In this document: piece by piece, positions 14,383 to 64,000 of the stretch
Position numbering within the stretch: position 1 is the first letter of the stretch
Layout: every line of letters starts with the position of its first letter
Assembly: GCA_010093605.1 (NCBI GenBank)
Contig: MU004184.1
Span: 639,897-703,896, forward strand
Length of the DNA: 64,000 bases
Direction: 5' to 3'
Origin: Lophium mytilinum
Taxonomy: Eukaryota; Ascomycota; Dothideomycetes; Mytilinidiales; Mytilinidiaceae
The notes under the pieces: generated by a model
Seen by the model: the letters and a program-made list of their open reading frames with translations, nothing else
Database searches by the model: none
What the model was told of the DNA's origin: nothing
Translations under genes and position numbers: made by a program

Positions 14383-15368
14383 GCTGAGGAGAGTCTACAA
14401 TGCGAGCGTCGAAGCCAGCGGCAGGCTGGAACGAGGAGCGAGATTCAGCATCAGCGGACGAAGAAGAGTAGGCTTGAAGCGAGCGAAGGGAGGAGGTCTG
14501 CGGAGGAGGAGAAGTGGGAGAGGTGTGTAAGATGTCAGATGGCAGGACGAAATGCGGTGGGGGAGCTGAAATGCAGATGGCGTGCCCCTTCTAGGGAGTG
14601 TGTGGCAGGGCGCCTGAGACTTGTGAGTGGGCCAGCATCCACCACCGGGAGCGAGCGAGCGAGCGAGCCAAGACGGGCCGCGGAACGATCAGGGACACGG
14701 CAAGCCAGCCTTCTTCGAGAATAGAACAGGCGCTGGGGCTCGCCGCAAGGCTGATGGCGCGGCACAGGCGTCGTTGCGGGGTGTTGAAACGCGAGGGCCA
14801 GGGAGTCCAGGGATCGTGAGTTGAGGTTGTTGTTCTCTTACGGACGGCTGCTGTCAAAGGCGGAGTGCCCTCAATAGAAGTAACAGAACCGCTGTGCTTG
14901 CCCTCGCAGCCCTTACAGTGTCGCACAACAAAGGATGCTCCCACCACGTACGACTCGCACAATCAGCAGCACACGAGTACGACATAACATGCGAGCATCC
15001 AGCCGAAACCCCTTGGCCGCCTGCACTGAAGCGGTAATTGGTCACCCGTCCTGAAACACAACCTACGCAATTCTGATAGGCCGTATGCGGCGCGGGATCC
15101 GACTTCTTCACATCTGGGGCCGCTACCCTCACTGCCTCGTCACTCGCCTCTGCACTGAAGTGCCACTTATCGCACGCAATTGGGACACGGTTTTCATTCA
15201 CTAGCATTGACATTGTTGTCTTGAGACATTCAAGCTTCTATGTAGCTGATCCACGCAATTGGGACACGGTATTCATTCACTAGCATTGACATCGTTGTCT
15301 TGAGACATTCAAGCTTCTATGTAGCTGATCCACGTCCTTGCGTGCCTCCTCGCATCACGGCTCCGACC
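14383..15368. other. Intergenic region between CCT2 (3' end) and IRE1 (5' end)
   Basis: About 1 kb. The part next to IRE1 is GC-rich, purine-rich on the plus strand, and carries a short GAGC microsatellite near 14650. A 79-bp tandem duplication lies at 15173-15334. No supported gene; the overlapping frames on both strands here look like chance. Confidence 0.5.
15173..15334. repeat. 79-bp tandem duplication
   Basis: Unit 1 (15173-15251) and unit 2 (15252-15330) differ at two positions by my count, followed by 4 bp of a third unit. Each begins cacgcaattgggacacggt and ends tagctgatc. It sits about 35 bp past the CCT2 stop codon, so it may be in that gene's 3' untranslated region. High identity suggests a recent duplication. 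Confidence 0.9.
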
Positions 15369-51231: not shown

Positions 51232-54115
51232 ATGTCTGGGGCACAATATGCGGAGCGTGGGGGAGCCCTGCGCCCTGCCCAAAGCGACCACTTTGACGCA
51301 CCCGCCGATCCTGTCTTCTTCTCTACATCCTCTTCTCCCAGACTCTTCCGCCTCCCCTCAGGCCCCTTCGACAACGACTCGGGCGACTCGTCGGCCGTCC
51401 AGTCCCTCACCTCAGCCAGCACGCTGGACAGCAAGCTGGATTTCCCACCCTCCGATGCCGCTGCTCGCCAGGGCATGCTCGCAGACAGCTTCTTCCCGAC
51501 CTGGAGCAACGATGCGGCCGGCGCCAATCTAGACAACCCGGAGGAGATGCAGAAGAATGACCCTCTAGCCACCCAGATATGGAAACTGTATAGCAAGGCC
51601 AAGACGCAGTTGCCCAACGCGGAGCGCATGGAAAATCTGACCTGGCGAATGATGGCCATGAGCATGAAGCGCGCTGAACTGGATCGCAGAGGGTTCGTCC
51701 GCCTTGACCCAGCAGCTACTTGTCATTTGAACCCAGGGCCGTGTTAACAGCAGTGCCTCCAGATTGTCGCGATCCAACTCCTCCTTCACACCCTCCGCGG
51801 GCTCCATGTCGGCGCCCAGCGGCATTGCGCAGCTGCGAAAATCCGTCGACCAGCAGGCGCACGCCCAGGCGCAGCAGCCGCAGGCCGATGCGATGAATCT
51901 GGACGATTTTATATTCCCTTCGTCGGTTGCGTCGCCCGCGGGTTTATCTCCGTCGCCGTCGAATGAACGCACAGCCTCGTCCAATACTACTGCACCGGGC
52001 ATACCGATAAGGAAGACTAGCCAGATGGCCGATCAAAACCACCACCTCGCCCGCGCATCAGCCCCGTCTGTTCCCCCAACCATCTCAAGAGAGCACGACT
52101 TTGGATACATCCAACGGCACGTGCGCAAAACAAGTATCGATGAACGACGGGTCAGTACTTGCCTTTTTCTTCGCCCTACCACCCTCTCATTCCTTATCTA
52201 ACAGCACCAGCCTCGCAAGCGACCAGCGGAGAACTCCCCACAGGTTCCCGCCGTTAACAGCATCATGATACCCAATGAGCCCGAAGCAGACGCGGCTCTC
52301 CATCACTATACCCTAGACCAGCCAATGCATCCCCCCACCTTCCAGCATCACGGCTCTCAGCCACAGGTACCCTACTCCATCGACACCTTCCAACTGCAAG
52401 ACGATCCCATTATTAGCTCCGCTGGCCCGTTCCAGCAGCAGTTCACCTTCTCTCCCGTTGGCTCGCCTATGATGGCCCAAGGTGGCCCATACTCTGCCAT
52501 GTATAACCCTAACTCGATGGGCTCTTCACTAAACTCTGCCGACTACTACTCCCCTCCTGGCTCTGCGTATCCATCCACCGTGTCGACGCCCCAGCCAATG
52601 GCTGAAGGCGATGGCCAGATGTACTTCGATCGCAATGGCATGGACATCCGCCAACCGCACAATCTCCCCAGCCAGTACGGACCGCATCGACCCTCGGGTT
52701 TGTCTAACGCGATGCAGCCACAGTACATCTTTAACCCAAGCGGCGAGACCATCTTCAGTGCAGTCACCAGTGCTGCACCCCCGACACCATTCTCAGCTCC
52801 CGCCTTCCATCAACCAAACCATGTTGACCCGTCGCACGTCCTGCACCAAGACTTCCCGTCGCGGTCGGATACTCTCCAGAGCTCTCGGCACGACAACATG
52901 TTCTCGTTCGGAGCTGACTCTGACAACGAAGAAGATGAGGGTGGTGCATTCCCCGATCGCACTATGCCCATGCAAGCCGAGTACTCCCCCATGGATGACG
53001 GGCCGTTGGACTTTAGCAATGGCTTCCAGTGGGAGACGAGTCTGTCGAACCAATTCAACCCTGTCCCGGCTCGCTACCCGGCGGGGCCCCCACGCAAGCA
53101 GGTGACAATTGGGCCAACGGAAATGGTGCCTTCACCGCAAGACCACTGGAGCCCTGGAGGCAGCCTTGGCCGTACCCATGGCTCTGCCGCGTCAGTCAGC
53201 GACATCCGCAATCGTGGCAACGACCCGAGACGGCAGAAAATACCCCGCACCAGTTCCACTCCCAACGCTGCTGGCCTCGCGCAGCAGCAAGCGATGCATG
53301 GCCGGCCGCAGTCATCGCCAAGCTCACCTCCAGAATCCGGCTTCAGTTCCGCGGCACCTTCGCGGCCTACCAGTCCGGGAGGGACCAAACAGGGTGATCA
53401 GAACGGCGTGCCGACGACGTGTACGAACTGCTTCACTCAGACTACCCCGTTATGGCGACGAAACCCCGAAGGGCATCCCCTGTGCAATGCCTGTGGTCTC
53501 TTCTTGAAGCTGCATGGTGTTGTGCGGCCACTATCGCTCAAGACGGATGTCATCAAGAAGCGCAATAGAGGAAGCGGCAACACCGTTCCTGTTGGCACAG
53601 CATCAACACGCTCGTCCAAGAAAGCATCTCGCAAAAACTCTCTTGCACAGACACCGGTCACCACTCCCACGTCTGCAAAAGCGAGTGGTGGCGATTCAGA
53701 GTCGCCAAAGTCTACAGGGTCTGGCGGCGGAAACTCGGCCCCGAATGCCTCAGGCATATCTGGCGGCGCTGCAGGACTCAACAAGAGTGGCGTGGTCCCA
53801 ATTGCCCCAGGGCCGCCAAAACCGCAGAGCGCTGGGGCAGGCTCTAACCAAAACCGCAGTGGCAACGCTCCTCCAAAGAAGGCCCGTCGGCTAAGCAAAT
53901 CTGGTATGATGGAGTTTGAGATGGGTGATGCCGACGACACCAGCGGAAAGATAGCGGCACCGCCGACCGTCCGGAAGAAGGAGTCGGCGCCAATGATCCC
54001 GCCCAATATTGGCAGCCAGAATATGGGCAGTTTGCCCATGGGTGCGATGGGACAGGGTCTCGCAACAGGAGTCAGCGGGCCCCAGGAATGGGAATGGCTC
54101 ACAATGAGCTTGTGA
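51232..54115 (+). CDS. areA: AreA/NIT2-type GATA transcription factor, global nitrogen regulator
   Basis: Three exons (51232-51692, 51751-52150, 52205-54115) encode about 923 residues. The N-terminal AreA block is present ([20 protein letters not shown], then [18 protein letters not shown]), as is a central [13 protein letters not shown]-like stretch across intron 2. The single class-IVa zinc finger at about 693-717 has CX2C-X17-CX2C spacing ([18 protein letters not shown]). The C-terminus is WEWLTMSL, the tail that in known AreA contacts the repressor NmrA. Role: activates nitrogen catabolic genes under limitation and binds HGATAR sites. The borders of intron 1 are uncertain: 51693-51750 has the better donor, but 51697-51736 also keeps the frame. 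Confidence 0.95.
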
Positions 54116-61468: not shown

Positions 61469-61530
61469 CTACGCGGCAATCCGCAGCGCTTAATGTTTGC
61501 GTAATCCGCAGTCTTTTCGCAAACTTTGCC
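61469..61530 (+). repeat. Left-flank copy of a repeat bracketing the array
   Basis: Aligns at roughly two thirds of positions, with small gaps, to 63781-63840 (shared words tacgcg, cgcag, tgtttgc and gaactt/aaactt). Same orientation on both sides of the tandem array. Confidence 0.45.
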
Positions 61531-61630
61531 TTGTGCGTAATGCTTAGAAGTCCCAAGGTCCCCGGACTGAAAAGAAGATTTGAATTGCTTCTCGACTGAT
61601 TACGCGGCAAAAGGTACAAAAGCAATAGCT

Positions 61631-63700
61631 AAGTGGCTACGTCCTCCCTACGTGTCAAACTTTGGCGTGTGTCTTAGACGTGCTAGATGGTTCTTTGCCG
61701 CCTACCAAAGCATGTAATATAGGAAGATTAAAGGGGGTAATGTTATTCAGCCCTTTACTTTAAGGGAGATTATCTAAGCGGCTATATATTCCCTGCGTGC
61801 CAAATCTTAGCGTGGTCTTCAGATATATTAGACGGTTCTATACCACCTCCCTGCGCACGTAGTATAGTCAGGACAAAGGGACGGAGCGGAAAGGGGAGGG
61901 GGGGTATAGATAATGGTATCTAAGCAGCTATTTCTTCCCTGCATGCCAGATTTTAGCCTATTTTATGGGCGTGTTAGATAGTTCTTTGCCGCCTACTAGC
62001 GCACGTAATATAGACAGGATAAAGGGGAGGAAGAGGGGTGTAGGGAAAGAGGGGGGAGAGGGGTTTAAATTATTATTTATAAGCGGCTATATCTTCCCTG
62101 CGTGCTAGACTTTAGCGTGGTTCTTAAATATATTAGATAGTTCTTTACCGCCTACGAGCGCACGTAGTATAGTTAGGACGAAGGAACGGAGGGGAAAGGG
62201 GAGGGGGGTATAGATAATAGTATCTAAGCGGCTATTTCTTCCCTGTATGCTAGATTTTAGCCTGTTTTATAGGCGTGTTAAATAGTTCTTTACCGCCTAC
62301 CAGCGCATATAATATAGACAGGATAAAGGGGAGAGAGAGAGGTATAGGGAAAGAGGGGGGGGAGGGGTTTAAATTATCATTTATAAGCGGCTATATCTTC
62401 CCTGCATGCTAGACTTTAGCGTAGTTCTTAAATATGTTAGATAGTTCTTTACCGCCTACGAGCGCATATAATATAGACAGGGTAAAAAGAAGGGGTATAG
62501 CGCGGGGGGATAGGGGTGCATAGATACTAATACCTAAGCAGCTACTTCTTCCCTGCGTGCTAGATTCTAGCGTGGTTCGCGGATGTATTAATTAGTTCTC
62601 TACCGCCTACTAGCGCACGCAACATAGATAGGATAAAGGGAAGGGGTAGGGCGCGGGGGGGCAGGAGTCTAGATACTAATAGCTAAGTGGCCACGCGTTC
62701 TCTAGATGCTAAACTTTAACAGTGTTATTAGATATCTAAGACAGTTTTTTACGGCCTACCTGCGCGCGTAATATAGGCATACTAAAGGGGGAAGGTTATT
62801 AGGGGATAAGAATTCAGCCCGTCATTTATAAAATATAAGGTAAGTAGCTATATCTTCTCTAGGCGCCAAACTTTTACATTGTTATTAAACGTCTAATACA
62901 GTTCTTTTCCGTCTCTCTGCGCACGTAATATTGCCAAAAAAAAAAAGGGGGGGAGGAGGGGGGGTAGCGTGGCGTGTAGAATCCAGCCCGTCTCTTATAG
63001 AATAATAACTAAGTAGCTATTTCTTCCCTAGATGCCAAATTTTAATAGTGTTATTAGATACTTAAGAGATTCCTTTGCCGCATATCTGCGCACGTAATAT
63101 AGAAAAGATAAAAGGTATAGTAGAAGAATCTAGCCCGTACTATATAAATAATAGCTAAGTAGCTATATCCTCCCTACGTGCCAAATTTTAATAGTATTAT
63201 TAGATACTTAAGAGATTTCTTTACCGCATATCTACGCACGTAATATAGGAAAGATAAAAGGTATAGTAGAAGAATCTAGCCCGTACTATATAAATAATAG
63301 CTAAGTGGCTATATCCTCTCTACGTGCCAAATTTTAATAGTGTTATTAGATACTTAAGAGATTTCTTTACCGCATATCTGCGCACGTAATATAGGAAAGA
63401 CAAAAGGTATAGTAGAAGAATCTAGCTTATACTATATAAATAATAGCTAAGTGGCTATATTCTCCTTACGTGCCAAACTTTAACATTACTATTAGATGCC
63501 CAAGATAGTTCTTTGCCGCCTATCTGCGCACGTAATATATAAAGAGTTGAAATAAAGAAGGGGGGCTGCGAGGCGCTGGGGCGGCGGGCGCCACTCTAAA
63601 TAATAATAGCTAAGCGGCAGCGTCTTCTCTACGTGCTAAATTCTAGTATAGCGATAAGACGTCTAAGACAGTTCTCTTCAATCTTGCAGGCGTCTATTCG
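61631..63700 (+). repeat. Satellite-like tandem array, about 14 units of 145-169 bp
   Basis: Units begin at the word aagYRg after a taa/ct stretch. I place starts at 61631, 61776, 61922, 62081, 62226, 62385, 62536, 62685, 62842, 63011, 63157, 63303, 63449 and 63612. Each has a ctatNtcttccctNNgtgc-like head, a tagatagttctttaccgcct-like core, a cgcacgtaatat box and a G-rich purine tract. Units from 63011 to 63448 are the most alike; the left units are more diverged. Units 2 and 4 resemble each other, as do 3 and 5, so part of the array has a two-unit period near 305 bp. No coding frame follows the period. A centromeric or subtelomeric satellite is possible, but the position on the chromosome is unknown. 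Confidence 0.85.
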
Positions 63701-63840: not shown

Positions 63841-64000
63841 CCGTATTCCAAGTTGAAAGAAGCGAAGGAGGGGAGGCAGGGAGGGGAGGTCCGAACGCAA
63901 CGAATGTGAGCTAATTTGTGTTCTTTCCAATTACACGGAAATTTCTTGTGCTCAATATCTATACGATTTCCAAGCTTCGTACCAGTTTGCCGTGCAGTTA

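Follow-up and report, generated by a model that had tools for sequence, protein, structure and literature searches.

The window analyzed here covers 64,000 nucleotides (C4:639897-703896); the assembly it comes from has 24 contigs and a total of 43.18 Mb. On its plus strand, positions 61629–63679 are occupied by an apparently non-coding satellite, a tandem array of 13 complete units (A1–A13) followed by a truncated 14th (A14). The first seven units start at 61629, 61774, 61920, 62079, 62224, 62383, and 62534, the last six complete units at 62683, 62840, 63009, 63155, 63301, and 63447, and the truncated unit at 63610, giving successive periods of 145, 146, 159, 145, 159, 151, 149, 157, 169, 146, 146, 146, and 163 bp. 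Tandem Repeats Finder (TRF) splits the array over five rows from 61771 to 63539 and, together with the box positions described below, sets its period range at 145–169 bp. A unit model built from 26 units matches 14 window stretches (61624–63679, E 8e-12 to 2e-27), the 13 complete window units matching it by construction; A14, which by its box positions is without its right part, was excluded from every 26-unit count. The units run head to tail, are longer than 100 bp, and are homogenized locally, as in a satellite, and the GC content of the array is lower than that of its surroundings. The initial annotation had described a satellite-like array of about 14 units of an unrecognized family with a regular box; TRF, box positions, and the unit model bear this out, and no description of the family was found in the literature, judged by titles and the openings of abstracts.

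Each unit carries a rigid core of about 92 bp, in which four boxes form two inverted pairs. The 26 complete cores, 13 from this array and 13 from a second array on contig C9, align over 107 columns with zero gaps, and nine columns are invariant; the five outer units of the contig C9 array are just 46–64% identical to the contig C4 units. Unit A13 may serve as the example. Box 1 (63444–63458, unit positions −2 to 12), delimited like the others by column conservation over the 26 units, has the consensus TA-n-CTAAGYGGCTAT; in the outer units C10–C13 of contig C9 it reads GGCAA. Box 2 (63463–63477, unit positions 17 to 31, consensus TCYCTRCGTGCYARA) is followed by a variable middle of 31 bp (63478–63508), which is free in sequence and fixed in length. 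Box 3 (63509–63521, unit positions 63 to 75, consensus TTCTTTRCCGCCT) is the inverted partner of box 1 (GCGGC/GCCGC), and box 4 (63526–63537, unit positions 80 to 91, consensus GCGCACGTAATA) that of box 2 (TACGTGC/GCACGTA). All these A13 features lie on the plus strand, as does the 66-bp linker that follows (63542–63607). Linkers measure 48–72 bp in the window array and 39–72 bp over both arrays. Boxes are damaged in A8, A9, A14, and C7, so any function may be gone.

Conservation in the unit falls on the core and not on the G-rich tract. The box first noted lies within box 4 and is indeed phased in the unit, as one of four boxes within the indel-free core; it is not present in every unit, since the exact CGCACGTAATAT is found in just six of the 13 complete units. 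With up to three mismatches, the box 3-4 pattern matches all 13 complete window units, and the box 1-2 pattern matches 11 of them (A8 and A9 are missed) plus the truncated unit. A purine tract held in the same phase, also part of the initial annotation, was not borne out: the linkers vary in length, and G-runs of at least four occur in 10 of 13 window linkers, with none in A10–A12, and in three of 12 linkers on contig C9.

The right-hand units had been singled out as most alike. A10–A12, near the right side, are indeed the most similar window units, at 91–96% core identity. They do not form the end of the array, A13 being 79–84% like them, and a second homogenized block lies elsewhere (A4/A6 93%, A3/A5 89% core identity, TRF period 304); the two blocks indicate copying at more than one place. 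In the contig C9 array, units C3–C5 share 88–93% and C12/C13 87% core identity, and the lowest value for any unit pair is 41%.

Pattern and DNA searches of the assembly placed the family at three places on two contigs, rather than at a single locus. The contig C9 array was found by DNA searches with two parts of the window array; it lies on the minus strand, at about 0.995 Mb of a 2.0-Mb contig, and 13 units were cut from it, with starts between C9:996825 and 995042. The third array (C4:572649-573340) came up when the right flank of the window array was used as query; it lies 129 kb to the left of that array, with 67 kb separating it from the start of the window, which puts the contig C4 places at 0.57 and 0.70 Mb of 2.48 Mb. 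It has five units, the fifth a poor one, and its units are near-palindromic, TACGTGCGC...GCGCACGTAG. Three further units of this type III lie past the window end, at C4:705.2-705.6 kb, in the direction opposite to the window array. The stretches of the family span 0.7–4.1 kb.

Allowing up to three mismatches, the box 1-2 pattern has 20 matches in the assembly, 12 in the contig C4 array (the truncated unit included) and eight in the contig C9 array, and the box 3-4 pattern also has 20, divided 13 and seven; the control gave zero for both. The type III pattern has six matches, all in the two contig C4 places (control, one). Over the whole assembly, none of the 46 matches of the three patterns is a dispersed copy outside the arrays. 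Of the 13 contig C9 units, the two box patterns miss five and six, respectively, and only the best candidates are scored in the DNA search, so strongly diverged arrays could exist. Single dispersed units were considered and rejected: among 10 exact matches to the 12-base box, six are in the window array and one in the contig C9 array, and the remaining three (contigs C8, C11, and C12) equal the control count of three, with nothing nearby by the unit model.

The flanks of the window array hold shorter, type II units, with ends like ACGCGGCAAT...TTTGCCGCGTA. A possible decayed one lies at 61471–61535 (plus strand), where ACGCGGCAAT-like and TTTGCCGCGTA-like ends stand 65 bp apart, weaker than in the main units. 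In the right flank, four pairs of ends are spaced at exactly 64 bp, compared with 74 bp in the main units: one at 63933–63996 (plus strand, inverted ends) and three beyond the window, at C4:703979, 704130, and 704291. Please note that type II was first recognized by eye, that the scan gives about three matches per strand in shuffled 76-kb sequence, and that the same right-flank scan also returned ends spaced 55 bp (at 64719) and 59 bp (at 65011) apart, fitting neither 64 nor 74. A stricter pattern has the type II unit at C4:704130 as its sole genome-wide match. The 10-bp difference between type II and main units is about one DNA turn and, for these few units, would fit proteins bound on one helix face.

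Both main arrays carry the marks of a RIP-mutated repeat, i.e., TpA excess, CpA/TpG deficit, and CpA-biased transitions. At 61629–63610 (strand not applicable), TpA/ApT is 1.53 and (CpA+TpG)/(ApC+GpT) is 0.68, judged against the rest of the same sequence (0.72 and 1.20 at window positions 1–60000, 1.15 and 1.04 in the right flank); the contig C9 array has 1.40 and 0.85, set beside comparison values of 0.80 and 1.14. Of 71 transitions in nine overlapping pairs of close units, 30 fall in CpA context, CpA making up 97 of 493 C contexts. Among A10–A12, five of 16 differing positions are CpA-context transitions, which indicates that RIP-like change continued after those duplications.

RIP makes transitions only, and transversions were counted apart for this reason. 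Over the 325 unit pairs, boxes 1–4 show 0.112, 0.051, 0.087, and 0.093 transversions per site, box 2 having the lowest rate of the five segments, and the middle shows 0.292. When the outer units C9–C13 of contig C9 are compared with the 13 contig C4 units, the values are 0.186, 0.042, 0.187, and 0.190 for the boxes and 0.437 for the middle. The observed difference between boxes and middle was reached by none of 20000 column shuffles and none of 85 rotations, counts that serve as a guide rather than a probability, as one alignment served both to define the boxes and to test them, the units are related, and the columns are not independent. The type III units add a further comparison. Once the 26 main units are reverse-complemented, the eight type III units fall into register with them, at 0.04, 0.23, 0.16, and 0.19 transversions per site for boxes 4, 3, 2, and 1, compared with 0.41 for the middle and 0.40 for the stretch between boxes 2 and 1. 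Up to box 1, six of the eight are gapless, D4 has one 1-bp gap, and D5 has a 1-bp gap and a 1-bp insertion; inside box 1, all eight carry an extra base. Between the units of this one genome, boxes and spacing are conserved, and the intervening DNA has diverged to near-random.

Among 72 distinct open frames near the three places, Pfam searches recovered a pectate-lyase-like protein, NFACT-C, GH16, and a glycosyltransferase, and no mobile-element families; the arrays are called intergenic on the basis of open frames only. One of 65 short flank frames has a weak Mpo1-like match (E 0.0077). The contig C9 array has an open frame of 160 aa, without Pfam match, ending nearby, and in the window an open frame of 616 aa (52265–54115) whose product has an AreA-like GATA domain lies 7.5 kb left of the array; this domain, taken with the RIP-like repeats, suggests that the source is a filamentous ascomycete. 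The flanks of the contig C4 and C9 arrays do not appear to be shared: blastn at E 0.01 found nothing outside the repeat stretch (hits at window coordinates 61500–66000 excluded), and blastp matches between flanking open frames fall inside the repeats only. Elsewhere in the window, a 79-bp tandem duplication (15173–15334) has 2.1 copies with 97% match. The whole assembly yielded no 5.8S rRNA match, and rDNA is probably missing from it. A coding array was considered and dropped: two of 13 periods are multiples of three, and in frames of 62 aa or more on and near the arrays Pfam found nothing at E 0.01, the weak Mpo1-like match excepted. Also set aside was a tRNA-like A box, which TAGCTAAGTGG in some units resembles: its G is not conserved, and ARAGORN found no tRNA in the window.

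The reading we favor, with about even confidence, is that of an old, RIP-eroded array of composite modules, putatively protein-binding, with selection acting on boxes and spacing. The unit would be one such module, in which the GCGGC...GCCGC and TACGTGC...GCACGTA pairs stand at fixed distances and the linkers between modules are free. One or two sequence-specific DNA-binding proteins may occupy the boxes, perhaps on one helix face, and adjacent modules could then add up to a strong local platform, regulatory or chromatin-organizing, that selection would keep. Local unequal exchange probably enlarged the array, which RIP has attacked. Its main rival is a functionless old satellite, left at a few loci by local duplications and eroded by RIP and drift, with boxes that are simply not yet lost or are poor in RIP targets. 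We regard this as possible, though on balance unlikely. The RIP-type indices of both main arrays, the share of close-unit transitions in CpA context, the damaged units, and the fact that just three places were found all agree with it; against it, transversions are not produced by RIP and are about 2.6 to 6 times less frequent in the boxes than in the middle, and the middle keeps the same length in all 26 units. Distinctly less probable, in our judgment, is an origin from a palindromic DNA transposon or MITE whose remnant turned tandem, its boxes being former transposase-binding sites. The TA-ended inverted ends TACGTGCGC...GCGCACGTA are exact in one type III unit and near-exact in others, and inverted boxes resemble transposase sites. 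Such an origin fits poorly with units spaced as a tandem and with pattern matches (20, 20, and six) that all lie inside the arrays, none dispersed. The 72 open frames also contain no transposase domain, though non-autonomous elements need no transposase gene nearby.

The remaining readings are not supported. That the arrays are clustered genes for small structured RNAs, in which the boxes would be stems in the pseudoknot order a b a' b', seems very unlikely to us. Boxes within a pair are complementary (pairing in 86.5% of cells, compared with 9.6–59.0% when partners are slid by 1–3 columns), and four of 12 pairs changed on both sides. Shuffling partners between units gives 86.2% paired, with 169 of 500 shuffles reaching the observed value, and an average of 2.6 both-side changes, with 68 of 500 reaching four; the complementarity therefore lies in the consensus, without covariation. 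The nested consensus fold is weak (−2.15 kcal/mol), eight folds (four units on either strand) give z values between −1.44 and +0.69, and Rfam scans of the window array, its flank, and the contig C9 array yielded no match at E up to 1 or 3. G-quadruplexes, one role proposed at the outset, do not correspond to the conserved part, the G4 pattern occurring in four of 13 window linkers and one of 12 on contig C9. For a centromere or telomere-associated satellite, likewise proposed, we see hardly any chance. The arrays are tandem and lower in GC than their surroundings, and that on contig C9 lies near mid-contig, but instead of many arrays with one site per chromosome, the family was found on two of 24 contigs, with two places on one of them, in short stretches none of which is less than 0.5 Mb from a contig end. 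The layout, with boxes at fixed distances in drifted DNA, suggests rows of putative protein-binding sites and not a centromere or the end of a chromosome.

In a fungus with RIP, tandem repeats are expected to be erased. Should selection maintain the boxes, the arrays would mark the target of a putative DNA-binding protein and offer a compact case for studying how a tandem element survives RIP. A bolder extension of the binding-module reading, which we put forward as improbable, is that the three places belong together as a single dispersed cis-acting system, in which a dedicated DNA-binding complex would read the four-box module. Were this so, the arrays on two chromosomes would be the only high-density landing sites of that complex in the genome, they might nucleate a chromatin state or bring loci together in meiosis, and selection would preserve the boxes in DNA under continued damage by RIP.

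Several known systems are comparable in part. In centromeric satellites, the CENP-B box is a short site for protein binding that has a set place in the unit. The present boxes, likened to it by layout, also have set places in their unit, but here there are four, and arrays were found on two of 24 contigs. In baculovirus hr regions and nematode meiotic pairing centers, repeated short motifs act as protein platforms at few loci. The rows of short motifs at few loci described here are similar, with a putative platform; here, not every chromosome has an array. Among fungi, Mycosphaerella graminicola has a tandem satellite with a unit longer than 100 bp in a genome whose repeats show CpA-biased transitions (PMC4522978), and the present family resembles it in both the tandem unit and the RIP-like process. 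The description consulted for that satellite mentions no conserved boxes at fixed spacing (PMC4522978), whereas here the boxes persist across arrays on two contigs.
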